DNA of 64,000 nt, taken from the NCBI GenBank assembly GCA_035968315.1, contig JAVYIN010000002.1, positions 124,001-188,000 of the forward strand, read 5' to 3'. The notes below the pieces were generated by a model, which worked only from the letters and a program-made list of their open reading frames with translations, was not told the DNA's origin and did not search any database. Both the position numbers and the translations under genes were made by a program. Of the stretch, positions 49,611-63,865 are shown in pieces. Source of the stretch: Nitrospira sp. (GTDB lineage: Bacteria; Nitrospirota; Nitrospiria; Nitrospirales; Nitrospiraceae). How positions within the stretch are numbered: position 1 is the stretch's first letter; each line of letters starts with the position of its first letter.

Positions 49611-50042
49611 ATGGCCAAAAGTGAAAAAGAAATGAGCATGCTTCGCGACCACCTCGCCAAGCATCAGCTCAAGCTGACGCGCCAGCGCGAGCTCATTCTC
49701 GACGCCTTCCTCAAGCAAGAACATATTACGGCGGAAGAGATGTACCACCAGCTGGCCAAGAAAGACCCGCATCTGGGCCTGGCCACGATCTACCGCACGC
49801 TCAACCTGTTCTGCGAGGCCGGCCTAGCCCAGGCCCGGCATTTCGGCACCCAGACGCAATACGACAACATCTCCCACAAAGGCCACCACGACCATCTGAT
49901 CTGCACAGGGTGCGGCAAGATCGTGGAGTTTGAAAACTGCGAAATCGAAAAGCTCCAGGAAGAAGTGGCCACCCGCAACGGCTTTACCATTTCGACTCAC
50001 CGCCTTGAACTGTACGGCCTCTGTTCCCGCTGCCGTCATTGA
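49611..50042 (+). CDS. fur: Fur-family ferric uptake regulator
   Basis: Fur represses iron-acquisition genes when bound to Fe(II). The 143-residue protein has the winged helix (LKLTRQRELILDAFLKQEHI, ATIYRTLNLFCEAGL) and the metal-binding HHDHLICTGCGKIVEF with a second CSRC pair at the C-terminus. The context, directly before the ferric importer genes and near a Fur-box promoter at 57104, argues for iron rather than zinc or peroxide sensing. It could still be Zur or PerR by sequence alone. Confidence 0.88.
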   Translation: MAKSEKEMSMLRDHLAKHQLKLTRQRELILDAFLKQEHITAEEMYHQLAKKDPHLGLATIYRTLNLFCEAGLAQARHFGTQTQYDNISHKGHHDHLICTGCGKIVEFENCEIEKLQEEVATRNGFTISTHRLELYGLCSRCRH

Positions 50043-50111: not shown

Positions 50112-51182
50112 ATGACCTCCTTCAATATTCGTCACCGGACAGGCGCGGCATCCGCCGGGCGCCGGCTTGCGCTGGCGATGCTCACCGCCTGTTCACTCGC
50201 CCTGAGCCTCTCCCTGTGCATACCAACGGCCTCACCGGCCGCCGATAAGCTGACCGTCTATTCAGGCCGGTCTGAACGGCTCATCAAGCCCGTCTTCGAC
50301 GCCTTCACCGCGAAGACCGGCATTCAAATCGAGCTGCTGTCCTCCGGAACGACAGAATTGGTCAACCGGTTGAAGGCCGAAGGAGATCGGACCCCTGCCG
50401 ACCTGCTGCTCACGAACGATGCCGGCAGCCTTGAACTGGCGCGCGGCGCAGGGCTCTTGCGCCCGCTGAACATGCGCGAAGTGGAGCGTGCCATTCCCTC
50501 GCAGTTCCGCGCCGCCGACAACAGCTGGGTGGGCCTCTCGGGACGGTTCTGGATCATCGTGTATAACACCACGATGGTCAAACCAGGCCAAGTCACCTCG
50601 CTGTTCGACCTGGCAGATCCCCAATGGAAAGACAAAATCGCCATTCCAAACTCAGGCAGCGAATATCTCCAGGCTGGCGTCTCGGTCATTCGCGCCACCC
50701 ACGGCGATGACAAGACGAAACAATTTCTGACCGGGCTGCGTGACAATGCCGGGTCCCAGGTCTATCAAAAGAGTTCCCAGATCGTGGACGCCGTGGCCAA
50801 AGGCCAGGTGGCCATGGGGATCGTGAACCACTATTACGTCTATCGCCACCTCGCGACCCAACCGGCGGCGCCGGTGGCCGTCCTCATGCCGGATCAAAAA
50901 GAAGGCGGCATGGGCGCGATCATGAACGTGACCGGGATCGGGATCACCAAGTCCAGCACCCATGCCGACAACGCCAAATTGCTCATCGAGTTCCTCGTGG
51001 CGCAAGCCGGCCAGAAAATGTTCGCCGACCTGGATAAAGAATACCCGCTGCATCCGGAGGTCAAGGCGGATCCCGCGCTCGTGGATCGCAAGAGCTTTCG
51101 CGCCGCGCTGGTCCCGCTGACGAAGCTGGCCGAGCTCCGGGAACCGACGCTGACGCTCATCGAACAAGTGGGCCTCCGCTGA
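50112..51182 (+). CDS. fbpA: Ferric iron ABC transporter, substrate-binding protein
   Basis: A 356-residue periplasmic binding protein of the FbpA/FutA family. The N-terminal signal peptide (LALAMLTACSLALSLSLC, ending near ASPAA) is followed by KLTVYSGRSERLIKPVFDAF. Iron ligands are visible as the tandem tyrosines Y241-Y242 in NHYYVYR. It captures ferric iron for the permease-ATPase encoded next. It starts 70 bases after fur, is followed by fbpB after 16 bases, and is probably part of one operon. Confidence 0.93.
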   Translation: MTSFNIRHRTGAASAGRRLALAMLTACSLALSLSLCIPTASPAADKLTVYSGRSERLIKPVFDAFTAKTGIQIELLSSGTTELVNRLKAEGDRTPADLLLTNDAGSLELARGAGLLRPLNMREVERAIPSQFRAADNSWVGLSGRFWIIVYNTTMVKPGQVTSLFDLADPQWKDKIAIPNSGSEYLQAGVSVIRATHGDDKTKQFLTGLRDNAGSQVYQKSSQIVDAVAKGQVAMGIVNHYYVYRHLATQPAAPVAVLMPDQKEGGMGAIMNVTGIGITKSSTHADNAKLLIEFLVAQAGQKMFADLDKEYPLHPEVKADPALVDRKSFRAALVPLTKLAELREPTLTLIEQVGLR

Positions 51183-51198
51183 TCACACGAGGCTCCTG

Positions 51199-52782
51199 GT
51201 GACGACGCTCCGGCGACAACTGTCTTCTCCGCTGCAGCTCATGGCAATCGCCACGGCGGGACTGATCCTGCTCCCGCTGGGCTATGTCACGCTGCTGGCG
51301 GTCACGGCCGACCCGGCCGTTTGGTCGCGCCTCTGGGCCACGCGCATCCCCGAACTGCTCTGGAACACTATCTCGCTCGCGGGTTCCGTCGCCGTGCTCA
51401 CCCTGATCCTGGGTGTTACGACGGCCTGGCTCGTCGTGCGCTTCGATTTCCCCGGGCGGCGCCTGTGGGAAGCGGCGCTGATTCTCCCCCTGGCCATGCC
51501 CACCTACGTGCTGGCCTATGTCTACACCTATCTCCTGGGGTTCGGCGGCCCGGTGGAGCTAGCCTGGCAGATCTGGGCGGGGCCGCAAAGCCGCATTGTC
51601 TCCCCGCAAAGCTTTTGGGGCACCACGCTCGTCATGGCGCTGGACACCTTTCCCTTCGTCTATCTGCTGACGCGGACCGCGCTCTTGAGCCTGAACGTCT
51701 CATTTGAAGAAGTGGCGCGGGTCAGCGGCGTGTCCCGCATGATGACGCTCTGGCGTGTGACGCTCCCCCTGATGCGCCCCTCGATTGCGGCCGGCGTGGC
51801 ACTGGTCATTCTCTATGTCGTGTCGGATTTCGGCGCCGTCTCGCTGCTGCGCTACCAGACCCTGACTTATGCCGTCTTTCAACAGATGACCGGCCGGTCC
51901 GATAACACCGCCGCCAGTATCCTGAGCGTCCTGCTTGTCGTCCTCGCATTGTTGTTCCTTGTCACCGAGCGCTGGTTCCGGCAACGCAGCCGCTTCTATC
52001 AAACCACCGGGCGGTATCGAGCGCCGCAACGGATCCCATGCCGCTGGATCGGCGCGCTGTCGATCACGGCGTTGCTGGGCGGAATTGTGGCCATGTCCTT
52101 CGGCGTGCCCGCATATCTGCTGGTGAAATGGAGCTTGTCGCCGGAGGCCCTGGCCATCATCGACAGCCGCTTCTACGGGTTCATCTGGAACAGCGCCCTG
52201 CTGGCCGCCGCCGCCGCCACCGCCGGGGTGCTGATCGGCTTGCCGCTCGCCTACTTAGCCAGCCGGCGGCCGACGCTGCTAAATCTTGGCTGCCTCCAGG
52301 CCGCCTACGCCGGGTATGTGTTGCCCGGGCCGGTCGCAGCCCTGGCGGTGCTGGTCCTCTGCCTGAAACTGACGCCCATCTTCTACGGCACCGTGCTCTT
52401 GCTGATCGTGGCCTACGTGATCCACTTCCTTCCGGCCGGACTCCAGTCGCTCGAACCGGCGCTGCAACAGATCACCCCCAACTTGGAAGAAGTGGCCAGA
52501 ACCTTGGGGCTGGGGGTGCGCGACACCTGGCGGCGCGTCACCCTGCCGCTCGTGCGCAACGGCTTCATCGTCGCCTGGGTCTTGATGTTTCTCCAAACGA
52601 TGAAGGAATTGCCGGCCACCCTGCTGTTGCGTCCGGTGGGATTCGACACGCTGGCCATTCGCGTGTGGCTGGAAGCGAGCGAAGAGTACTTTCAATTGGC
52701 GGCACCCTCGGCCCTGCTGATCGTCTTGCTGAGCTTGCCGGCGCTGTGGCTGCTGGTCTCCAAAGACTGGCGGTCGGCCTGA
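51199..52782 (+). CDS. fbpB: Ferric iron ABC transporter, permease
   Basis: A 527-residue inner-membrane permease, a fused pair of six-helix BPD_transp_1 units. Each half has the EAA loop for the ATPase (EEVARVSGVSRMMTLWRVTLP and EEVARTLGLGVRDTWRRVTLP). This duplicated form is typical of Fe(III) transporters such as FbpB, SfuB and HitB. The GTG at 51199 follows AGGCTCCTG. It works with FbpA and FbpC. Confidence 0.93.
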   Translation: MTTLRRQLSSPLQLMAIATAGLILLPLGYVTLLAVTADPAVWSRLWATRIPELLWNTISLAGSVAVLTLILGVTTAWLVVRFDFPGRRLWEAALILPLAMPTYVLAYVYTYLLGFGGPVELAWQIWAGPQSRIVSPQSFWGTTLVMALDTFPFVYLLTRTALLSLNVSFEEVARVSGVSRMMTLWRVTLPLMRPSIAAGVALVILYVVSDFGAVSLLRYQTLTYAVFQQMTGRSDNTAASILSVLLVVLALLFLVTERWFRQRSRFYQTTGRYRAPQRIPCRWIGALSITALLGGIVAMSFGVPAYLLVKWSLSPEALAIIDSRFYGFIWNSALLAAAAATAGVLIGLPLAYLASRRPTLLNLGCLQAAYAGYVLPGPVAALAVLVLCLKLTPIFYGTVLLLIVAYVIHFLPAGLQSLEPALQQITPNLEEVARTLGLGVRDTWRRVTLPLVRNGFIVAWVLMFLQTMKELPATLLLRPVGFDTLAIRVWLEASEEYFQLAAPSALLIVLLSLPALWLLVSKDWRSA

Positions 52783-52812
52783 CAGGCGCGCGAACAGGAG
52801 TACCTGAACACC

Positions 52813-53937
52813 ATGATACGGACCGACACTGACATGGCCACTGTGCAACCGGACCTCTATCGGCCGGCTTCCAATGTGCTGGAACTGCGCTCCGTCTCCT
52901 GCGCGTACGAAACCGGCCGGCCGGCGATCCGGAACATCTCATTCGCCGCGCGCGAAGGGGAAATCCTCTGTCTCCTCGGCCCGTCCGGCTGCGGAAAGAC
53001 CACGATTCTGCGGGCCATCGCCGGATTCGAACCGGTCCGTGCAGGGGAACTGTTCCTGTCGGGACAACTCGTGTCCAGCCAGAATCTGACCATCCCGACC
53101 GAGCAACGCCGCGTCGGGATGGTGTTTCAGGAATATGCCCTCTTCCCGCACCTGCGCGTGGCCGACAACATCGCCTTCGGCCTGCATCACCTTTCCAGAA
53201 GCGAGCGCACATGCCGGGTCCAAGAGATGCTCACGCTCACCGGCCTCGAAGGCTTCGACCGGCGCTACCCGCATGAACTCTCCGGCGGCCAGCAGCAGCG
53301 TGTGGCCCTGGCGCGCGCGCTGGTGCAGAATCCGGTCGTCCTGCTGCTCGACGAACCCTTCAGCAATCTGGATCCAGATATGGCCAGCCGGATGCGCCAG
53401 GAGCTGCATGCCTTATTGCGCCGCACCAAGACGACGACCATCCTCGTGACCCACGACCATGAAGAAGCCTTTGCCATGGCCGACCGGATCGCGGTGCTCA
53501 ACCAAGGCCGCCTGGAGCAAATGGACACGCCGGAATTGATCTATCACATGCCCGCCAGTCCCTTTGTGGCGGATTTCGTCGGACAAGCCGACTTCATCCA
53601 GGGCACGATCCACAACGGCATGGTGCACACGGAGCTGGGCGAGTTTCCCAATACCCTCACCAGCGAAGAGGGCGCCGGCGTGGTGGTCATGATTCGTCCC
53701 GACGATATCCAGCTGGCTCCGGCCAAAGGCGCCGGCGCCCGCATCATCGCCCGGCAGTTTCGGGGATCGGAAAACCTCTATACGGTCAGCCTGCCATCGG
53801 GACAGATCGTCCACAGCAGCGCCGGCTCCACGAGCGTGTATCAGGAGGGCGCCGCCGTCGAGTTGCGCGTGCTGGCCACACACACCGTCCTGTTCCCCGG
53901 CCCCGCGGCAGCGAGCGATGCGCCGGCCCAACCATAG
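52813..53937 (+). CDS. fbpC: Ferric iron ABC transporter, ATPase
   Basis: A 374-residue ATPase: Walker A GPSGCGKTT, signature LSGGQQQRVALARAL, DEPFSNLD, and a C-terminal regulatory TOBE-like domain of about 120 residues, as in FbpC. It energises iron import by FbpB. An ATG seven codons downstream (52834) is an alternative start. The stop is followed by the exbB region without a visible terminator. Confidence 0.93.
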   Translation: MIRTDTDMATVQPDLYRPASNVLELRSVSCAYETGRPAIRNISFAAREGEILCLLGPSGCGKTTILRAIAGFEPVRAGELFLSGQLVSSQNLTIPTEQRRVGMVFQEYALFPHLRVADNIAFGLHHLSRSERTCRVQEMLTLTGLEGFDRRYPHELSGGQQQRVALARALVQNPVVLLLDEPFSNLDPDMASRMRQELHALLRRTKTTTILVTHDHEEAFAMADRIAVLNQGRLEQMDTPELIYHMPASPFVADFVGQADFIQGTIHNGMVHTELGEFPNTLTSEEGAGVVVMIRPDDIQLAPAKGAGARIIARQFRGSENLYTVSLPSGQIVHSSAGSTSVYQEGAAVELRVLATHTVLFPGPAAASDAPAQP

Positions 53938-54039
53938 TTGACAGGCCTTTTCCCCATCTGGCATTCATACGGGTCTATTCCTGTCTTTTACTCACCCAGC
54001 CACCAGGATTCATCCCCTGGGCACGCAAGGAGTTCGCTT

Positions 54040-54474
54040 ATGGACGCGTTGAAGAACGCGGTGGACTACGGGATCATCGGCCTGCTGCTCGGGTTGAGCC
54101 TCTGGTCTGTCGCCGTGGCGGTGGAGCGGTGGCTGTTCTATCGGACCGTGAACTTCTCCCACTACCCCAATGCCCAGATCTTCGAGATGGCCCTGACCAA
54201 GCGGCTGGTGATTATCGGCACGGTGGCCGCTAACGCGCCGTACATCGGCCTGCTCGGCACCGTGCTCGGCATCATGCTGACATTTCATACGATGGGCACG
54301 TCCGGCACGATGGCCGTCAATACCATCATGATCGGCCTCAGCCTGGCCTTGAAGGCCACGGCGGTCGGCCTGCTGGTGGCCATTCCCTGCGTCGTCATGA
54401 ACAACATCCTCCGCCGCCGTGTCAGCGAACTGCTCACCGAGTATAAGGTGCATCATGGATCGTCAGCAGGTTGA
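54040..54474 (+). CDS. exbB: ExbB-type proton channel subunit
   Basis: A 144-residue MotA/TolQ/ExbB-family protein with three helices: GIIGLLLGLSLWSVAVAVER, then NAPYIGLLGTVLGIMLTFHTMG and a third (LALKATAVGLLVAIPCVVMNN). The short form, like that in Helicobacter, contrasts with the 240-residue E. coli ExbB. It uses the proton gradient to drive TonB. AAGGAG precedes the ATG. The genes exbB-exbD-tonB overlap and are cotranslated. Confidence 0.92.
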   Translation: MDALKNAVDYGIIGLLLGLSLWSVAVAVERWLFYRTVNFSHYPNAQIFEMALTKRLVIIGTVAANAPYIGLLGTVLGIMLTFHTMGTSGTMAVNTIMIGLSLALKATAVGLLVAIPCVVMNNILRRRVSELLTEYKVHHGSSAG

Positions 54475-54832
54475 TCAAATCAACGTTATCCCGCTCGTGG
54501 ATGTGATGCTGGTCCTGCTCGTGATCGTCCTGACCACGGCCACCTTCATCACCACTGGCCAAATCCCTGTGAGTCTGGCCAAGGCCAAATCGGTCAGCGA
54601 CCGGAAGGATGTGCCTCTGGTCATTACCCTGACCGCGGAAGGAGGCCTCTACCTCAACGACAAATCGGTCCCGGAAGGAGGGCTGCCCTCGGCCCTGGAA
54701 ACCCAGTCGCGAGATTCCGCGGTGGTGGTGCGGGCCGATAAGGCAACCGTGCTGGAACGATTCGTCTCCGTGGTCGATGAGGTGCGCGGGCTTGGATTTC
54801 AGCAGGTCAGCCTGGAGGTGATCCGGCTGTGA
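54455..54832 (+). CDS. exbD: ExbD-type TonB energiser
   Basis: A 125-residue protein with one N-terminal membrane helix (NVIPLVDVMLVLLVIVLTTA) that carries the essential aspartate D16, and a periplasmic domain ending in GFQQVSLEVIRL. It partners ExbB and TonB. The ATG at 54455 overlaps the exbB end by 20 bases with AAGGTG upstream. The stop overlaps the tonB GTG (GTGA). Confidence 0.93.
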   Translation: MDRQQVDQINVIPLVDVMLVLLVIVLTTATFITTGQIPVSLAKAKSVSDRKDVPLVITLTAEGGLYLNDKSVPEGGLPSALETQSRDSAVVVRADKATVLERFVSVVDEVRGLGFQQVSLEVIRL

Positions 54833-55926
54833 CCCTGGCCCATTCCCATGGCCGAGCCTCAGCCATCAATGCGAACATCGCCGGGTGGGTGGCCTCAGTC
54901 TGTGTGCACGGCGCCCTTGCGCTCGGAGCGGTCTTCCTGCTACAGCGCCTGCAACTGGCGCCGGACGTGGAGCCGTTCCAATGGGACGTCGCCATGGTGG
55001 AACCGGTTGCCAGACCGGCCTCTCAGGCCGCGACGAACCACGCACCCCCAACGCCCCCTGAGCCGTCCCGTCCGGCAACGGCGCCTCTTCAGCGAACGCC
55101 TTCGCCCACGCAACCGGCTCCAAGGGAAATGACTGCCGAACCATCACGCATCGAAGCGACTCCGCGCCCTTTGCCGGCTCCCGTCGCTCCCGTTCAACCG
55201 CCTCCAGCTCCCGTCCAAGCCGCTCCACCACCCAAGTCTGAGCCAGCGCCCCAGCCGCCACCACAGACCTCCGCTCCGGCGAAAATGGATCCAGCCCCCG
55301 AACCGGTTCGTGCGCCGCTTCCGACGGCGCCCAAGCTTCCGATGAAATCGGAAGATCTCCCGAAGCCCGCGCCCGCAGTTGAAGCACCGGCGCCAGCCGT
55401 ATCGTCATCATCCCATGCCCCGGACCAGCCCACTCCTCCCATGGAGTCTCGCCCCACCTCCATTACTGCGCTTTCCGCCCCCAGCGTGACCGCGCCACCA
55501 CCAACGGGAGAATCGCTTTCTCAACATACCGCGCCTCCCCAGGAAATGCCGGCGGCGCAGCCCACACCAGCCCCAACACAAGATGTCGCAACCCTCGCCC
55601 CTCTGGCCCAATCGAAAATCACCAAACCCGACGACGGCTGGCTGGCAGACTTAATGGGGAAATGGATTCAGGACTTGGAGAAACATTACCCGGCCAGCTT
55701 GCGGACGGAAGGCGTTCAAGGCAAAGTCGTGCTGGTCGCGATACTGCATGACGACGGCACGTTGAGTGACGTCAAGGTGTCGAAGAGCTCCGGCAATACG
55801 CTGCTCGATCAGGCCGCCGTCAGCGACGTCGAAAAGGGCCCGCCGATTCATCTCTCCCGTCCGCTGGGCCGGCCGCAGCGGCCGATCAAATTCTCGATTA
55901 GTTACGATCTGAAAACGGGCCGGTAA
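54829..55926 (+). CDS. tonB: TonB-family energy transducer
   Basis: A 365-residue protein with a membrane anchor at about 19-40, a long Pro/Ala-rich periplasmic spacer (about 65-270), and a C-terminal TonB domain of about 80 residues (GVQGKVVLVAILHDDGTLSD and later SISYDLKTGR). It couples ExbBD to outer-membrane receptors. No TonB-dependent receptor is in the window; the porin at 57464 is not one. It is convergent with apbE. Confidence 0.92.
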   Translation: MTLAHSHGRASAINANIAGWVASVCVHGALALGAVFLLQRLQLAPDVEPFQWDVAMVEPVARPASQAATNHAPPTPPEPSRPATAPLQRTPSPTQPAPREMTAEPSRIEATPRPLPAPVAPVQPPPAPVQAAPPPKSEPAPQPPPQTSAPAKMDPAPEPVRAPLPTAPKLPMKSEDLPKPAPAVEAPAPAVSSSSHAPDQPTPPMESRPTSITALSAPSVTAPPPTGESLSQHTAPPQEMPAAQPTPAPTQDVATLAPLAQSKITKPDDGWLADLMGKWIQDLEKHYPASLRTEGVQGKVVLVAILHDDGTLSDVKVSKSSGNTLLDQAAVSDVEKGPPIHLSRPLGRPQRPIKFSISYDLKTGR

Positions 55927-55947: not shown

Positions 55948-56958
55948 TCAGGGATACCGCAGTCTCGTACGAAGCCCCGATGACACCGTGATCTTTCCTT
56001 CGGCATCGATGATGACGGCCTCCACATCCGGCAACCGCTCGACCAACGCCATGCCCCGTTCAGGGCCTAACACGAAAATCCCCGTATCCAGCCCATCGGC
56101 CATCGTGCCCTCTTTCGCAATGATCGTGACGCTTTGACACAGACGCGCCGGTTCTAACGAGACCGGATCAAGGATATGGTGATACCGCACCCCCTCCAGC
56201 TCAAAATAGCGCTCGTAGTCCCCGGCTGTTGAAATCGCTTCGTCTTTCAGATCGATCGTGGCAACCAGTGCGCCGTCCTGTCGTGGATGGCGAATCCCCA
56301 CCGGGAATCCCTTCATTCCAGGCAAATCACCGAATGTTTTGATGTCGCCTGACAACGCCACTACACCTCCGGTTGCGCCAGCCTTTCGAAGCACGTCTAC
56401 GGCCCGATCAGCCGCATATCCTTTTCCAATTCCGCCGACATCGATGCGCATTCCCTGATGGGGCAGAAAAATCGTGTGGGCTTCCGGATCAATGCGGATG
56501 CTCTTCCAATCCACCAATGGTTTCAACTGTTGCAGCTCCGCCTGGGAGGGAATCTGTTGCCGCTCCGTCACGCTCCAGGCCTCGACCGCCGGGCCGACGG
56601 CAATATTGAATCCCCCATCGGTCAACCGCGCCATATCGAGCGAACGTTGCACCAATTCCAGCGTGTCCCGGCCTACGGCTACCGCATTACGACCAGCCGC
56701 CTGATTCACCGCCGACAATTCGCTGGTAGGAATCCAGGTGCTCAGCAGCTGCTCCAAACGCTTGATCTCGGCAAACCCCGCGGCAATCGCCTCGTGCGCG
56801 CGCACATCGGTCGGAGCCACGGCCGTAATCGACACCAGCGTGCCCATATGCATCTGGGTCCGTTTGACCACGACCGGCGTGGCAGCCGGATGAACCAGCC
56901 CGCACCCTGCGAGAATACCGACCGACAACAGCAGCAGCCACCTCAACGATGACACCAT
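55948..56958 (-). CDS. apbE: FAD:protein FMN transferase (ApbE), lipoprotein
   Basis: ApbE transfers FMN from FAD to a threonine or serine of periplasmic proteins. The 336-residue protein has a lipobox (ILAGCG, C19), so it is a lipoprotein facing the periplasm. Characteristic motifs are VKRTQMHMGTLVSITA, VALSGDIKTFG, STAGDYERYF, HHILDPVSLEPA and TMADGLDTG, with Mg-binding aspartate. A likely substrate is the FMN-binding protein encoded divergently at 59464. The ATG at 56958 has AAGG eight bases upstream. The neighbouring Fur-controlled promoter lies 150 bases away. Confidence 0.93.
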   Translation of the reverse strand: MVSSLRWLLLLSVGILAGCGLVHPAATPVVVKRTQMHMGTLVSITAVAPTDVRAHEAIAAGFAEIKRLEQLLSTWIPTSELSAVNQAAGRNAVAVGRDTLELVQRSLDMARLTDGGFNIAVGPAVEAWSVTERQQIPSQAELQQLKPLVDWKSIRIDPEAHTIFLPHQGMRIDVGGIGKGYAADRAVDVLRKAGATGGVVALSGDIKTFGDLPGMKGFPVGIRHPRQDGALVATIDLKDEAISTAGDYERYFELEGVRYHHILDPVSLEPARLCQSVTIIAKEGTMADGLDTGIFVLGPERGMALVERLPDVEAVIIDAEGKITVSSGLRTRLRYP

Positions 56959-57076
56959 ATGACGCACCTTCTTTTCATGACTGGCATTCCTTCTAGCCCC
57001 AATCCTGCTGGAAGTATAGGAGATTTAGCCGCTGAAATATATGCGCCTTGCCGCGGCAGCACACCGAAATCAACAC

Positions 57077-57106
57077 TTGACAGCAGCGGCGCTGTCAGGA
57101 TATTAA
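57077..57106 (+). promoter_or_regulatory. Promoter of the Fur-controlled operon
   Basis: TTGACA (57077-57082), 18 bases, TATTAA (57101-57106). The Fur-box match at 57104-57118 covers the -10 end and the transcription start, a classic repressor position. Confidence 0.7.
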
Positions 57107-57118
57107 TAATCGTTCTCA
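57104..57118. promoter_or_regulatory. Fur box
   Basis: TAATAATCGTTCTCA, on the other strand TGAGAACGATTATTA, matches the 7-1-7 core TGATAATGATTATCA at 12 of 15 positions. The site overlaps the -10 of the promoter at 57077. The fur gene lies in the same window. Confidence 0.7.
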
Positions 57119-57131
57119 ATTTCATTTAGAG

Positions 57132-57326
57132 ATGAGGCGCGAGGATATGGTCACCGTAAAATCCAGTCAACCGGCCGCTCCCCTCTCCAGCGAAACCCGC
57201 TGTGAGTGCGGGCAGCTCATTGCCAAGGTCATCGGGGGAGGATTGGAGCTGAAGTGCAAGCGATGCAAACGCATCGTCACCATTCCCTTCTCCGCCATTG
57301 AAGGATGGAGCCACATCGCATCATGA
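57132..57326 (+). CDS. Com-like zinc-ribbon protein
   Basis: A 64-residue protein with the cysteine pattern of Com-like zinc ribbons: C24 and C26 (RCECGQLIAKVI), then C42 and C45 (LKCKRCKRIVTI). Com of phage Mu is a translation activator, but similar small proteins are found on many chromosomes. As the first gene of a Fur-box operon it may be a regulator or an iron/zinc-related accessory; this is inference. ATG at 57132; an internal ATG at 57147 is possible. The next gene starts 137 bases later. Confidence 0.7.
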   Translation: MRREDMVTVKSSQPAAPLSSETRCECGQLIAKVIGGGLELKCKRCKRIVTIPFSAIEGWSHIAS

Positions 57327-57463: not shown

Positions 57464-58942
57464 ATGAGGATCCGGTCAATCCTCGGGGCTCTCGTGATTG
57501 CCAGCTTGCCGGTTGCGCCGGTCTGGGCCGAGAACATGACCCCGGAGGACATTAAGAAGCTCGTCGATCAAGCAGTCGAAAAGCGCCTGCAAGAACATGA
57601 ACGGCGCGAGGGCGCAACGGAACGCAAAGAAGGTGCTTCCGGACAAACGGCCGAGCCGGGTATCGGGTCTCTTCCCGAAGTCGGCAAGGAACGACGGACG
57701 GAATCGCAGCCGGCACTAGGATTCGGCTCCACGGGTTCAGGCCGCTTGGTCTACGCCAAACCGTTCGTTACTGCACCGAAAGCGATCGTCGGTGGCTATA
57801 TGGATATGCAATACCGCTCTCAGCGCAAACCCAGTATCGAGAACGGGTATGGCGGTAACACCAACGGGTTCGATCAGCAGCGATTCGTCCCGTTTATTTA
57901 TGCGGATATTACCGAGCATGTAAAGTTTGCCTCGGAACTCGAAATTGAGCACGGAATCAGAGAGGATGCTACTCAGGGGGCTGAAATCGGACTGGAGTTT
58001 GCCCACATTGACTACCTTGTTAATGAACCGTTTAATCTCCGTACCGGTATCCTTCTCATACCGATTGGAAAGTTTAACCTCTTGCACGATTCTCCGCTGA
58101 ACGACTTAACCGATCGCCCCTTGGTAAGCCGTTTCATTATCCCCTCGACCATGGCGGAAACTGGGGCCGGTTTCTACGGCACCCTTTATCCTGGCAGAAC
58201 CGGAAAGGTCGACTACGAATTCTACGTGACCACCGGCCCCTGCGGGTACAAATCCGACGGCACCCCTCGTATCACCGAATCCAACGGAACGCGAGGCTCG
58301 AGGCAGCGGAAATGTGCGTCGGATGATGGTCTCGACATCAACAATGGAAAAGCTTTCAGCGGCCGCGTCGCGGTGAGCCCCATGCTGGGCGTTGAAGTGG
58401 CAGGATCCGCATACCACGGCAACTCGGCACCAGGCCCCAATCATAATCCGTTGACGATTGCGGCGCTTGACTGGACCTTGCAGCGAGGCCCGTTCGAGAT
58501 CATCGGTGAAGCCGCCTGGGTCTACGCACGGAATAACGCCCATGCCATTAACGGCAGCACAGCCTACACACCCGGTTCATTGCTCTCAGGGCTATCCTCC
58601 AGCACCATCGGCACGGCCCCTCAGCGGATGAACGGATTCTATATGCAGGGCAACTACCATTTTATGCCGGACTTCCTGCGAGCCTGGTCGCCAAAGCGCT
58701 TTGGGGAAGGCTCTACCTTCACCGCGGTGATCCGCTACGACCGGATCAATACCAACCTGGATAACAAAACCGGTGGATTTGGCGAGCTTGAACAGATTTC
58801 ATTTGGGCTGAACTATCGTCCGATTGAAGATACCGTGTTCAAGATCAGTTATCAGTATCAGCCGAAAGCCTATAATCCCAACAATGATGGCAGCCGCATC
58901 CATGACAGCGCCCTGGTCATCTCGGCAGCCACGTATTTCTAA
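57464..58942 (+). CDS. Outer-membrane porin (OprP/OprO-like)
   Basis: A 492-residue protein with a signal peptide (about 23 residues, ending PVWAEN), an N-terminal Glu/Arg-rich coiled coil (ERREGATERKEGA), and a beta-barrel region ending in phenylalanine (SAATYF), the outer-membrane signature. The barrel pattern (KFASELEIEHG, GFYGTLYPGRTGKVDYEFYV) resembles phosphate-selective porins such as OprP. Solute is not known; iron control suggests a nutrient taken up in iron limitation. GGAGG lies seven bases before the ATG. An open frame continuing upstream to 57305 is not coding. Confidence 0.8.
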   Translation: MRIRSILGALVIASLPVAPVWAENMTPEDIKKLVDQAVEKRLQEHERREGATERKEGASGQTAEPGIGSLPEVGKERRTESQPALGFGSTGSGRLVYAKPFVTAPKAIVGGYMDMQYRSQRKPSIENGYGGNTNGFDQQRFVPFIYADITEHVKFASELEIEHGIREDATQGAEIGLEFAHIDYLVNEPFNLRTGILLIPIGKFNLLHDSPLNDLTDRPLVSRFIIPSTMAETGAGFYGTLYPGRTGKVDYEFYVTTGPCGYKSDGTPRITESNGTRGSRQRKCASDDGLDINNGKAFSGRVAVSPMLGVEVAGSAYHGNSAPGPNHNPLTIAALDWTLQRGPFEIIGEAAWVYARNNAHAINGSTAYTPGSLLSGLSSSTIGTAPQRMNGFYMQGNYHFMPDFLRAWSPKRFGEGSTFTAVIRYDRINTNLDNKTGGFGELEQISFGLNYRPIEDTVFKISYQYQPKAYNPNNDGSRIHDSALVISAATYF

Positions 58943-59008: not shown

Positions 59009-59467
59009 GTGAACCGCTTGGCAATATTCTCAGGACTCTTACTCTTGGCGAGCGGCTGCGCCACCATGAGCGGAAGCCATGATCAATACTACGTCTGCTC
59101 CTACGACCAGGTCTGGGACGCCACGCTGGACACATTGAAAGGGCACTCCATCACGGCACAGAACAAAGAGAAGGGCGTCATCGAAACGGCCTGGATCGAA
59201 ATGGAAGGGACGGAACGAGGGTTCGGAACCTTTGGCCGGGAAGGCTTCGGCAATCGAGAGCGTGCGCGCCTCACGGCCTCCCTCACTTCGCAGAATGATG
59301 TCACGTCGGTCAGCATCCTGGAAACCCGCCAGCGATGGCATGCCCGCGGGGGCGTCACGCAACAGTCCCTGAAATGGTGGCCCGTGGATCCTTCCGAAGA
59401 GGTTCTGCAAGACGTGTCCCGTCGATTGAATAGCAAGCTCCGTGAGAAAGGATGTCCGGCATCATGA
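59009..59467 (+). CDS. Hypothetical lipoprotein
   Basis: A 152-residue predicted lipoprotein: signal peptide and lipobox LASGC with C17. The mature part (YYVCSYDQVWDATLDTLKGH, VSILETRQRWHARGG) has a mixed fold reminiscent of small outer-membrane lipoproteins but is not assigned. It starts at GTG. Its stop overlaps the ATG of the FMN-binding protein (ATGA), so the two are coupled and may work together. Confidence 0.75.
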   Translation: MNRLAIFSGLLLLASGCATMSGSHDQYYVCSYDQVWDATLDTLKGHSITAQNKEKGVIETAWIEMEGTERGFGTFGREGFGNRERARLTASLTSQNDVTSVSILETRQRWHARGGVTQQSLKWWPVDPSEEVLQDVSRRLNSKLREKGCPAS

Positions 59468-60141
59468 AACCTTCCGTCCTGTTTCTGGGAGGCCTCCTGA
59501 CCTTGACCGCGTTCGCCACTCCGGCGTGGAGCGAACGCATTTGGGACAGCGAATTGAAACGTTACCTGACCGAGCAGGAAATGATGATGGCCGAGGTCTT
59601 CATGAGCGAAGAAGAAGGCGTCAAAATCATGCTCCCCAAATCGGAACGGGTTCGGAAGGACATCATCAAGCTCAGCCCTGACAAGAAGGCGCAGATCGAG
59701 GATCGCATCGGCTGGAAATTCCCTGAAGAATCCTTTGAGGTCTATATCGGCGAAACGGGCACCCACATCGACGGCTACGCCCTCGTCCAAAACACCATCG
59801 GAAAACACAAGCCCATGACCTACATGGTCGGGGTGGACAACAAAGGCCGCGTCTCGGATATCGAACTGCTGGTGTTCCGTGAGTCACGCGGAAGCGAAAT
59901 CCGGCAGAAACGGTTCAATACCCAATACGAAGGCAAAACCGTCCTCGACCCTGTCCGCATCAATAAGGACATCATCAACATCAGCGGCGCGACCATGTCC
60001 GTCCGCTCCATGAGCGCGGGCATCAAGCGCGTCCTGGTCTTGGTGGATGAATTCTACCTGAAGCCCGCCGGGATCGGCAGCGACACCGTGGCATCCCGCA
60101 AGACCGACAAGGGTGTTTTATCGTCCATTTTTGGCAATTAA
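59464..60141 (+). CDS. Periplasmic FMN-binding domain protein (ApbE substrate)
   Basis: A 225-residue exported protein with signal peptide (about 23 residues, ending PAWS) and a C-terminal FMN-binding domain. The flavinylation motif is NISGATMS (174-179), and T177 is the predicted covalent FMN site, as in NqrC-type and other SGAT proteins. The N-terminal region (about 25-110) is unassigned. It would carry electrons in the periplasm after flavinylation by ApbE (55948-56958). Coupled to the lipoprotein upstream and 24 bases before the membrane-protein gene. Confidence 0.85.
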   Translation: MKPSVLFLGGLLTLTAFATPAWSERIWDSELKRYLTEQEMMMAEVFMSEEEGVKIMLPKSERVRKDIIKLSPDKKAQIEDRIGWKFPEESFEVYIGETGTHIDGYALVQNTIGKHKPMTYMVGVDNKGRVSDIELLVFRESRGSEIRQKRFNTQYEGKTVLDPVRINKDIINISGATMSVRSMSAGIKRVLVLVDEFYLKPAGIGSDTVASRKTDKGVLSSIFGN

Positions 60142-60165: not shown

Positions 60166-60684
60166 ATGCGCAATTTTAACCAGCGATTTAAACTTCGTGA
60201 CTCAGACCGGCACATCCGATTGCTATATACCCTCTTCCTGCTCTTGATGCTGGTGGGGTTTAGCTTTTCCTTCTTTTGGGCTCACAGCATGACCAATTTG
60301 TCGCCCCAAGGCATTGCCGATCACTACCGCGGGTCGGACTCCACGTTCGGTGAACCCATGTCGTTCCGTGAGCTGGCGGAAGTCACGCACTTTCACATCT
60401 TCACGATGCCGGTCGTGTTCATGATCCTGGTGCACGTGCTCTACTTGACGGCCGCCAGTCATGCCATCAAATCGGCGGCCACCTGGATGGCCTTCGGCGG
60501 CGTCATGCTCGACCTCGCGTCACCCTGGCTCATCACCTACGTCTCTCCGGTCTTTGTGCTGACCATGCTCACCGGCGATACGCTGATGACCGTCAGCTTC
60601 CTCATCATGATGGGCATCCCGCTGTATGAAATGTGGATATTGGGGCAACCCTTAATGGCAGGGAAACACTCGAATCACGGCTAA
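60166..60684 (+). CDS. Small His-rich membrane protein, possible haem carrier
   Basis: A 172-residue protein with four predicted helices (about 18-38, 77-98, 105-128, 130-160). Histidines cluster at membrane ends: H40, H75 and H77 (VTHFHIFTMPVVF), H90 and H99. Paired membrane histidines often bind b-type haem, though no family motif is certain. It directly follows the flavinylated protein, so it may relay electrons from the quinone pool to the FMN. Hypothetical otherwise. Confidence 0.65.
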   Translation: MRNFNQRFKLRDSDRHIRLLYTLFLLLMLVGFSFSFFWAHSMTNLSPQGIADHYRGSDSTFGEPMSFRELAEVTHFHIFTMPVVFMILVHVLYLTAASHAIKSAATWMAFGGVMLDLASPWLITYVSPVFVLTMLTGDTLMTVSFLIMMGIPLYEMWILGQPLMAGKHSNHG

Positions 60685-60729: not shown

Positions 60730-60771
60730 AGAGCCCGGGATCACGACAGTGGTCTCGGGCTCTTTGTTTTT
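60730..60771 (+). terminator. Intrinsic terminator ending the Fur-controlled operon
   Basis: AGAGCCCG-GA-CAC pairs (two mismatches) with GTG-TC-CGGGCTCT around GACA, followed by TTGTTTTT. It closes the operon 57132-60684. Confidence 0.75.
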
Positions 60772-60783
60772 GAAAGGGATGGT

Positions 60784-61464
60784 ATGCCGCGCACAATCGT
60801 TCCCACGGTGAGTCCATCGGTTCTCACGATACAGGGATTGCTCCGAAAGACCGATCGCCTGAAACTTCCCGCCGCGTCGCGCCGCGAGATCGAACGCCTC
60901 CTGGTCAGCCAGGCAAGCAGAGAAATCGACCGGATGCTCCCCTGGCAATCCGGCCACGGACGGCGCGCCGCCGCCATCGCGATGAAGCTAGGGGAAGCCG
61001 CCGGCCTCACAACCGACGAGCTGCATCACCTGAAGCTGGCCGCGCTGCTCCATGACATCGGCCTGTTGATGCTGCCTCAGGAACTGATTGCGGAGCCGTC
61101 TCCCTTCGAGTCCGAGTCCTATATCGCCGTGCAGCACCATTCCCGGCTTGGCGCGCAGCTGCTGGAACCCTACGCCTTCTTGCGCGAAGCGGCCGTGCTG
61201 GTCGCCCACCATCACGAGCGGTGGGACGGCACCGGCTATCCCTATGGCATTCGAGGGGCCTTCATTCCCGTTGGCGCCAGGATCTTGGCGATCGCCGACG
61301 CCTTCGACGCCATCCGCGTTCCCCTGATAGACCTCCGGGATGCGCGCAACCGTGTCGCGCTCCGGATTCTCCTCGTGGCGTCAGGCACCCAGTTCGACCC
61401 AGGACTGGTCAGTCTCCTTTGCCGCCAATATGGTTCGTTTCCGTCACCCCCTGTTTCACCCTAA
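60784..61464 (+). CDS. HD-GYP-type phosphodiesterase
   Basis: A 226-residue protein with a nearly complete HD-GYP domain: the HD pair in KLAALLHDIGLLMLP, then HHSRLGAQLLEPY, AHHHERWDGTGYPYG and ILAIADAFDAI. The HHE and GTGYP motifs are intact, unlike in the HD-GYP protein at 22126. It probably hydrolyses cyclic-di-GMP. No N-terminal sensor is visible. The start of the cytochrome gene is 17 bases after its stop. Confidence 0.85.
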   Translation: MPRTIVPTVSPSVLTIQGLLRKTDRLKLPAASRREIERLLVSQASREIDRMLPWQSGHGRRAAAIAMKLGEAAGLTTDELHHLKLAALLHDIGLLMLPQELIAEPSPFESESYIAVQHHSRLGAQLLEPYAFLREAAVLVAHHHERWDGTGYPYGIRGAFIPVGARILAIADAFDAIRVPLIDLRDARNRVALRILLVASGTQFDPGLVSLLCRQYGSFPSPPVSP

Positions 61465-61480
61465 CTGTAAGAGGTTCACC

Positions 61481-63238
61481 ATGAAAGACATCCCCCGCTG
61501 CTCCGCATTTCTTCCTCTTTCCGTGCTGCTGTGCTCCGCGCTGGCCTTCTCCGGCTGCTCCGGCGGCGGATCCGATTCGGTCTCCGCCACGGCACAGCCG
61601 GCTTCGCAGAGCCCCCTCACATTCGATCCGCCGGAAGTCACCAACGGCGAGCGCCTGTTTCTCGAAACGCGCTTCGCGCAATTTTTCAAGGCCTATCTGG
61701 ATGCGGGAGGACGGGTCAACACCCCGATGCCGGCGGGCGATCCGGTCATGACGCTCACGGACACCACGGTGCCCGGACAGGGCCTGCCGGGCCCCTTCGC
61801 GGGCCTCTCCATGAATTGCCGCGCCTGCCACCTGGTCGATGAACATGTCGGGACGCCGGGAGGGGGCATGCGCACCTACGGCGACTTCGCCCGCCGCAGC
61901 CCGATCCCGGCCCGCGCCGACGGCCGTCTTACCGCCCCCAGAAATTCGCCGCCGCTGGTGAACGCCTCGCTGGCTCGGACCGGGGGCACGCTCTTCCACT
62001 TCGACGGCGAGTTTGCCACCATGACCGGGCTGACCGCGGCGACCTTCACCGGCCGTAATTTCGGCTGGGTGCCGGGGGAAAAGGCCCAGGCCATCGCCCA
62101 CGTCGCCCGCATTGTGCGGGAAGACGACGGCACCGGCGCTCTCGCGCAGGAGTTCGGCCGCCTGCCGCTGGCCGTCATGCTCACCGGCAGCGGCCAGCCG
62201 ATTCCCAATGAGTTCCGGCTCCCTCCCGCCTTCCGGGTCAACGTCGCCAGGGCCACCGACCAGGAAATCTTCGACGGCGTCGTGCGCCTGGTCGCCGCCT
62301 ACGTCGAGCAACTGGCTTTTGCCCAAGACAAGGCCGGGAGCTTCATCCTGTCGCCCTACGATGTCTTCTTGGCCCGCAATGGCCTGCCCAGAAAGCCGGA
62401 GGCGAATGAATCGCCGCTCGACTACAGCCGGCGCCTGCGAACCTTGATCGCCGCCCGCCAGCAAACGGGCACGCTCGTCTTCGTCAGCGGCAATCCGAAC
62501 ACGGCGGACGGCCGGTTCCAATTCCACGATCAATCGTTCCGCTTCGGCGCTGACGAACTGGCCGGCCTGAATATCTTCCTGGCTGAGCCGGCTGCCCTGC
62601 CGCTGGCCCCGCGCGAGATTGCCGCCGGCGGCATCGGCAACTGCGTCGCCTGCCATGCCGCGCCGAACTTTACCGATTTCAACCTGCACAACACCGGCAC
62701 GGCCCAGAAAGAATACGACGGCCTGCACGGCGCCGGACGATTCGCCCAACTCGCCATCCCGAACCTGGCGGAGCGCAGCGCCTCTCCCGAGCGCTACCTC
62801 CCCGCAACCCACAACCATCCGTCCTATCAGGAGCCATTCCGGGCTGTTCCGATGGCCGCCAACCCCGGCCTGACGGATCTCGGCGTCTGGAATATCTTCG
62901 CGAATCCCGACATGCCGGAGCCGCAGGACACGATCCGCGCCATGCTCTGCGACGGCCAGCAGCCCTGTCCGCTGGCTGACAGCATCCTGCTCGACCGCGC
63001 CATCGCCCGCTTCAAGACTCCGGGGCTTCGAGACCTGGGACACGGCGGGCCCTACATGCACAACGGGCAATTCGATACGCTGGACGACACGGTGCAATTC
63101 TACCGGGACGCCGCCGCACAGGCCCGGGACGGCGCCTTGCGGAACGGCGCCGTGCAGCTACAGGGCATCGCCCTGACACAGGCCGACGTGGCGTCACTGG
63201 CTGCATTCTTGAAATCGCTGAACGAGGATTACGAATAG
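61481..63238 (+). CDS. Di-haem c-type cytochrome lipoprotein (MauG/CCP-like)
   Basis: A 585-residue exported protein with a lipobox (AFSGC, C26) and two haem c sites, CRACH (C113-H117) and CVACH (C388-H392). The architecture of about 270 residues between haems and a C-terminal GLRDLGHGGPYMHNGQFDTLDDTVQFY segment matches the di-haem cytochrome c peroxidase/MauG superfamily. Catalytic role (peroxidase or other oxidation) is not determined; the spacing exceeds classical CCP. AAGAGG precedes the ATG; a longer frame upstream overlaps the HD-GYP gene. Confidence 0.85.
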   Translation: MKDIPRCSAFLPLSVLLCSALAFSGCSGGGSDSVSATAQPASQSPLTFDPPEVTNGERLFLETRFAQFFKAYLDAGGRVNTPMPAGDPVMTLTDTTVPGQGLPGPFAGLSMNCRACHLVDEHVGTPGGGMRTYGDFARRSPIPARADGRLTAPRNSPPLVNASLARTGGTLFHFDGEFATMTGLTAATFTGRNFGWVPGEKAQAIAHVARIVREDDGTGALAQEFGRLPLAVMLTGSGQPIPNEFRLPPAFRVNVARATDQEIFDGVVRLVAAYVEQLAFAQDKAGSFILSPYDVFLARNGLPRKPEANESPLDYSRRLRTLIAARQQTGTLVFVSGNPNTADGRFQFHDQSFRFGADELAGLNIFLAEPAALPLAPREIAAGGIGNCVACHAAPNFTDFNLHNTGTAQKEYDGLHGAGRFAQLAIPNLAERSASPERYLPATHNHPSYQEPFRAVPMAANPGLTDLGVWNIFANPDMPEPQDTIRAMLCDGQQPCPLADSILLDRAIARFKTPGLRDLGHGGPYMHNGQFDTLDDTVQFYRDAAAQARDGALRNGAVQLQGIALTQADVASLAAFLKSLNEDYE

Positions 63239-63394: not shown

Positions 63395-63865
63395 TTATGA
63401 CTTCATCTGCTCGGCGAGATAGGCGGGAAGGCCGGTCTGGCCAATGGTGGCGAGCTGGCGCTCGAAATAGTCGACATGTTCCTCCGAATCCACGACCATC
63501 TCTTCCAGCTTGTGGCGCGTGGTGAAGTCCCCGACCTTGGCCGCATGGGCGATCGCCTTCCGCAGCATCTCCACATCCTCTTTTTCAAAGGCAAGATTCG
63601 TCTCGAACAAGTCTTTAACCGACGCCCCGTCTTTCACCTTGTCCAGCTTGCTCACATCGGCCCGTCCGCCCAGGTAGAGAATATGCCGGACCAACTGGCC
63701 TGAATGGGTCACCTCTTCCGTATATAAATGCTGAAATTGATCGGCCAGCCGCTCATAGCCCCAATGGCGGCACAACTCCGCGTGCAGCAGATATTGGTGC
63801 ACGGCCGTCAATTCGGCTGTCAGGATCTCAGCGAGCCGATCAAGGATTCCTTCTTTGGCTTTCAT
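63395..63865 (-). CDS. bfr: Bacterioferritin lacking the usual haem-ligand methionine
   Basis: A 156-residue four-helix iron-storage subunit. Ferroxidase residues are intact by position and motif: E18, E51, H54, E94 in NLAFEKEDV, E127 and H130 (VDSEEHVDYFERQ). At position 52, where E. coli Bfr has the haem-binding methionine, this protein has valine (EEVTH), so it probably cannot bind haem in the normal way. A second bfr gene lies just upstream on the same strand, and the two may form mixed 24-mers. Confidence 0.9.
   Translation of the reverse strand: MKAKEGILDRLAEILTAELTAVHQYLLHAELCRHWGYERLADQFQHLYTEEVTHSGQLVRHILYLGGRADVSKLDKVKDGASVKDLFETNLAFEKEDVEMLRKAIAHAAKVGDFTTRHKLEEMVVDSEEHVDYFERQLATIGQTGLPAYLAEQMKS

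Follow-up and report, generated by a model that had tools for sequence, protein, structure and literature searches.

A four-helix HxH membrane protein as candidate electron donor in a Fur-box-bearing flavin operon of Nitrospira

Background

In gene clusters linked to flavinylation, exchange between flavins and cytochromes as well as links to iron have been described (Meheust 2021, PMC8238504). The donor classes distinguished in that study (NapH-like, MsrQ-like, PepSY-like, DsbD and NQR/RNF-like) resemble the locus analyzed here in that a membrane protein gene lies beside genes for FMN_bind and ApbE proteins and, in some classes, is linked to iron genes. The membrane protein of the present locus, encoded at positions 60166-60684 of the window (the whole 64 kb stretch of Nitrospira DNA that was analyzed), differs from these classes in that it has four helices, lacks PepSY, Ferric_reduct and NqrB/RnfD matches and carries its family-wide conserved histidines on a single helix. 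The DUF4405 cytochromes, including the ferrosome protein FezC, likewise combine conserved histidines of a membrane protein with links to flavinylation and iron; for FezC, haem sites that form in a homodimer have been proposed, and the recombinant protein is a cytochrome (PMC10979944). However, DUF4405 proteins possess six helices and four central histidines, and the four-helix protein does not match their profile.

RnfG and NqrC share the FMN_bind fold and the covalent-FMN motif with the protein encoded next to the four-helix protein (59452-60141), but the genome lacks NqrB/RnfD, and the flavoprotein is paired with the four-helix protein instead. The closest precedent for the porin of the locus is psp, a PF07396-like porin gene of Geobacter metallireducens and Desulfuromonas, for which Fur control was predicted and a role in iron transport suggested (Rodionov et al. 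2004, PMC545781). Both cases include a phosphate-selective-porin-like barrel with Fur boxes upstream; in its passages on psp, that account mentions neither an FMN_bind nor a four-helix partner. To the extent that these passages cover it, the Nitrospira operon resembles the psp case, extended by a flavoprotein and a membrane partner.

Results

The operon and its surroundings comprise the following features.

49611..50042, forward strand: Fur-family regulator (PF01475, E 3e-36)
50112..53937, forward strand: binding-protein-dependent ABC transporter (SBP_bac_6, BPD_transp_1, ABC_tran)
53938..55926, forward strand: ExbB, ExbD and TonB
55948..56967, reverse strand: ApbE flavin transferase with a lipobox, divergent from the operon (PF02424, E 2e-82)
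57077..57104, forward strand: sigma-70-like promoter (TTGACA, 16 nt, GATATT; 10/12), its -10 element overlapped by the operator
57099..57117, forward strand: Fur-box-like operator GATATTAATAATCGTTCTC, 15/19 against the classical Fur consensus
57132..57326, forward strand: zinc-ribbon-like small protein (CxCG...CxxC), first gene of the operon, beside the porin across Nitrospirota
57464..58942, forward strand: outer-membrane porin, 492 aa, ATG at 57464 (Porin_O_P, E 0.0014, below the cut-off)
59009..59467, forward strand: lipoprotein with an LASGC lipobox (weak Pfam matches only; order conserved)
59452..60141, forward strand: secreted FMN_bind (RnfG-like) flavoprotein with the motif SGAT (Pfam FMN_bind, E 1.7e-8)
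60166..60684, forward strand: four-helix membrane protein, 172 aa, with HxH at the start of TM2, H90 deeper in TM2 and D116 in TM3
60730..60773, forward strand: intrinsic terminator at the end of the operon (stem of 15 pairs with a T tract; -31.2 kcal/mol, z -5.1)
63395..63865, reverse strand: ferritin-like protein (PF00210, E 3e-29), near the operon in many relatives too

The order zinc-ribbon protein, porin, lipoprotein, FMN_bind protein, four-helix protein and terminator is conserved in Nitrospira, and a search of the literature found no description of this gene set or module. The zinc-ribbon-like protein has no match in Pfam, and there is no evident reason why a small Cys4 protein should head an iron operon. 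The porin scores 18.4 bits against a Porin_O_P gathering cut-off of 20.9 bits; its structural model, of low confidence (pLDDT 57), shows a 16-strand porin fold, and a Foldseek search started with this model identifies OmpU (E 2e-12) and OprP (E 4e-10), the best matches among solved structures being general porins, OprP included. Beyond the terminator, positions 61340-63238 encode a large protein with two CxxCH motifs (CRACH and CVACH), perhaps a di-haem peroxidase-like enzyme, with only a weak match to Cytochrom_C.

The flavoprotein exceeds the curated FMN_bind cut-off (35.5 against 22 bits), is the sole FMN_bind protein of the genome and contains a flavinylation motif of the form [ST]GA[TS], here KDIINISGATMS; given that ApbE is also encoded, it is predicted to carry a covalently bound flavin. 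The motif, as [ST]GAT or SGAS, is present in all aligned FMN proteins except that of locus L119. At eight Nitrospirota loci (L123-L126 and L137-L140), ApbE and FMN_bind matches occur within one reading frame, as Pfam confirms for L126. The FMN_bind gene adjoins the four-helix gene in every one of 81 Nitrospira loci and likewise in all 28 distant loci that have a complete frame and no haem-c motif, the latter having been picked by the membrane protein alone; the porin and zinc-ribbon genes are usually found with them.

The four-helix protein is encoded by a genuine open reading frame next to the FMN_bind gene, as the original prediction had it, and matches once in the 3.1 Mb, 99.97% complete Nitrospira genome. 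Its closest named relatives are from Nitrospira, and its identity across the 80 Nitrospira loci kept is 77-85%, in a contig scan that used patterns derived from this very protein and retained only its close relatives. The AlphaFold2 model (pLDDT 76, pTM 0.70) consists of long helices at residues 2-43, 67-93, 99-121 and 128-158 and a short helix at 47-55. If the positively charged N-terminus is taken as cytoplasmic, the loop 43-74 and the HxH motif at the start of TM2 would lie on the periplasmic side. Comparison with the Pfam, NCBIfam and PHROG family models yields nothing usable for this protein or for nine distant relatives; specifically, there is no match to DUF4405 (PF14358) at E 1, to the PepSY-like and MsrQ-like models PF03929 and PF01794 or to the NQR/RNF-like model PF03116. 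A PDB sequence search with the family profile returns no matches, the plasmids searched contain no relative, and Foldseek and VIA-align searches started with the model identify generic helical bundles only (best Foldseek E 0.95; VIA-align Z 10.8 to a soluble bundle), which is within what such bundles are expected to give. The earlier statement that no characterized family combines this size and these motifs is thus borne out for Pfam, NCBIfam, PHROG and the PDB.

Within the phylum Nitrospirota, to which the whole-genome sampling was confined, the family is found in 150 of 395 genomes, down to about 25% identity. In the phylogenetic tree, the FMN-linked members, which keep H90, form one clade and all the CxxCH proteins, together with L119, L121 and L128, form another (support for the split 100/98). 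The CxxCH proteins have about 80 additional residues between TM1 and TM2, and the CxxCH motif is located 39-41 residues before HxH; judging from this motif, a c-type haem is predicted in the periplasmic loop of the sister clade. A covalent haem in a loop that faces the same HxH supports the view that TM2 passes on electrons at its periplasmic end. Neither clade is described by any Pfam, NCBIfam or PHROGs family model.

Several neighborhoods of the sister clade deserve mention in their own right. At L119:3928-5846, the genes of a member without haem, an FMN_bind-like protein without SGAT and a haem-c member follow one another, an arrangement that looks like a replacement of flavin by haem. At L115:4631-5839 and L120:3586-4845, haem-c members have as neighbors proteins whose N-terminal part contains CxxCH; in L120 a region similar to porins comes next (Porin_4, E 3e-5, under the cut-off). 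These proteins resemble Cyc2-type fused cytochrome-porins. Genes for ABC1/UbiB-like kinases, a family of quinone biosynthesis, adjoin haem-c members at L113:7369-9048 and L118:4372-6027, which hints at a quinone link.

The original prediction held that H75 and H77 at a helix start, together with H90 and H99, could bind b-type haem. The four positions are as stated there, and H40, H53, H75, H77 and H90 are invariant among 81 Nitrospira sequences. In a wider alignment of 29 relatives without and 12 with CxxCH, H75 and H77 are invariant (29/29 and 12/12), and D116 is found in 22/29 and 12/12, respectively. H90 is retained in 26 of the 29 compared with 0/12, the exceptions among the 29 being L119, L121 and L128; the frame of L128 is truncated, and the tree places it with the CxxCH clade. 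H53 is present in 22 of the 29, with mostly tyrosine in its place otherwise, and H40 in 10. H99 was rejected as a haem ligand because it is not conserved, either within Nitrospira (41/81) or in the wider family.

Since H75, H77 and H90 all reside on TM2, no pair of axial ligands from two different helices of a chain is conserved family-wide; a bis-histidine haem within a single chain is therefore unsupported, and a homodimer would be required. What stands of the haem b claim is the universality of H75 and H77 and, in the relatives without CxxCH, the near-constancy of H90; the part assigned to H99 does not. A homodimer that holds two haems between the TM2 helices (H77 and H90) is a possible arrangement, and a haem-free quinol site formed by HxH and D116 appears about as likely. 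H77 and H90 are 13 residues apart on TM2, and this spacing is close to that between the paired ligands of cytochrome b.

No other site in the 64 kb window matches the classical Fur consensus as well as the operator at 57099, which lies between ApbE and the operon and is present in all 62 Nitrospira loci that have the region; in a footprint of 66 sequences, the TTGACA block and the operator block are both conspicuous. Throughout the genome, with up to two mismatches allowed, it occurs as one exact copy and one copy with two mismatches (L161:1501-1519), which lies about 35 bases upstream of a gene for a BFD-like ferredoxin (bfd-like). BFD-domain ferredoxins are a well-known kind of Fur target. 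Boxes that match at least 13 of 19 positions precede 15 of the 28 distant FMN-type loci, the best of them matching 18/19 (L142), against 0 of the 12 haem-c loci. The conserved box at the promoter suggests that the operon belongs to a Fur regulon. The ABC transporter encoded next to the Fur-family regulator is probably of the Fe(III) type (FbpABC-like), and Fur, FeoB or ferritin genes are neighbors of the module in L116, L117 and L127.

A search of the 99.97% complete genome for four donor models, NqrB/RnfD, PepSY_TM, Ferric_reduct and DUF4405, which stand for most of the known alternatives, finds none of them. Given this absence and the fact that the genome encodes a single FMN_bind protein, the electron donor of that protein is most naturally sought in the four-helix protein encoded next to it. 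FeoB_C, Nramp and Zip, the importer models searched for, have no matches in the genome either; FeoB_N matches were read as other GTPases and not as FeoB, since their scores are low (56 bits at most) and a FeoB_C match is lacking.

Discussion

These observations are best compatible with the view, which we consider moderately probable, that the four-helix protein donates electrons in the inner membrane as part of a module that is controlled by Fur and reduces iron in the envelope by means of flavin. The direction of electron flow, quinol as the source and iron as the acceptor are what we infer. Under iron shortage, Fur would leave the operator at 57099 and the operon would be expressed; the porin would admit iron complexes to the periplasm, and the secreted FMN_bind protein would receive its covalent FMN from ApbE at the threonine of SGAT. 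Electrons that the four-helix protein draws from the quinone pool would be handed to this FMN at its periplasmic face, around H75/H77, the flavin would reduce Fe(III) complexes, and the iron would then pass to an importer and to ferritin. The part of this scheme that the original prediction anticipated, a minimal membrane donor for the FMN protein, gains support from the adjacency in 28 of 28 distant loci and from the lack of the other donors searched. Two kinds of observation weigh on the other side. The donor role has to accommodate the lack of a conserved histidine pair on two helices and of an informative fold match, and iron reduction would be harder to explain if, as it appears, the nearby ABC transporter is of the Fe(III) type and no FeoB_C, Nramp or Zip protein takes up Fe(II).

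A cofactor-specific version of the donor role is a b-type cytochrome in which H77 and H90 of both TM2 helices of a homodimer ligate two haems and carry electrons from the cytoplasmic side to the periplasmic FMN, as proposed for FezC. The joint retention of H77 and H90 in the FMN clade fits this arrangement, as does the FezC model, in which DUF4405-like haem sites form by homodimerization in a protein that is a cytochrome when produced recombinantly (PMC10979944). The missing DUF4405 match, the lack of a conserved histidine on a second helix and the loss of H90 in the haem-c clade (none of 12), as well as in L119 and L121, make it a tentative proposal that falls short of an even chance.

The absence of FeoB_C, Nramp and Zip leaves room for a different role, that of a new Fe(II) permease in which HxH and D116 bind ferrous iron made by the FMN protein; the Fur-like control and the porin linkage would agree with it. 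Yet such a permease would leave the FMN protein without an adjacent donor and would be redundant in L117, where FeoB adjoins the module, and the sister clade, in which a covalent haem occupies the same loop and the Fur box is lacking, fits electron transfer better, so that we regard transport as unlikely. The small size and the lack of a cofactor motif of any known family could also point to a protein that does no more than anchor the FMN protein or ApbE in the membrane or help in their assembly, without a redox or transport role; this is quite improbable, given that the haem-c sister clade and the conservation of HxH (invariant) and of D116 and W121 (nearly so) favor a chemical function.

With the donor role as the preferred reading, the original prediction holds up in the donor and in the novelty of the family, and haem b remains a possibility; what it did not foresee was the control by iron, the operon with its porin gene and the existence of a haem-c sister clade. 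Because of the iron control and the sister clade, the gene merits more interest than was then accorded to it, the real finding being its surroundings. On a broader view, to which we give about even chances, these proteins form an uncatalogued four-helix HxH superfamily that delivers electrons to a covalent flavin protein in one clade, the one with Fur control and the link to iron, and to a c-type haem in its own loop in the sister clade; it would be a further flavinylation-linked donor class, serving periplasmic iron reduction in Nitrospira, here in a genome without FeoB.

Nitrospira are major nitrite oxidizers whose nitrite oxidoreductase and cytochromes create a high demand for iron. In a genome without FeoB, Nramp or Zip matches, a conserved Fur-controlled module of porin, flavin and membrane protein would hint at how these bacteria acquire it. 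The four-helix protein would add an unlisted membrane electron donor to flavinylation systems, and the exchange of flavin for haem within its family would be a natural and directly testable case.
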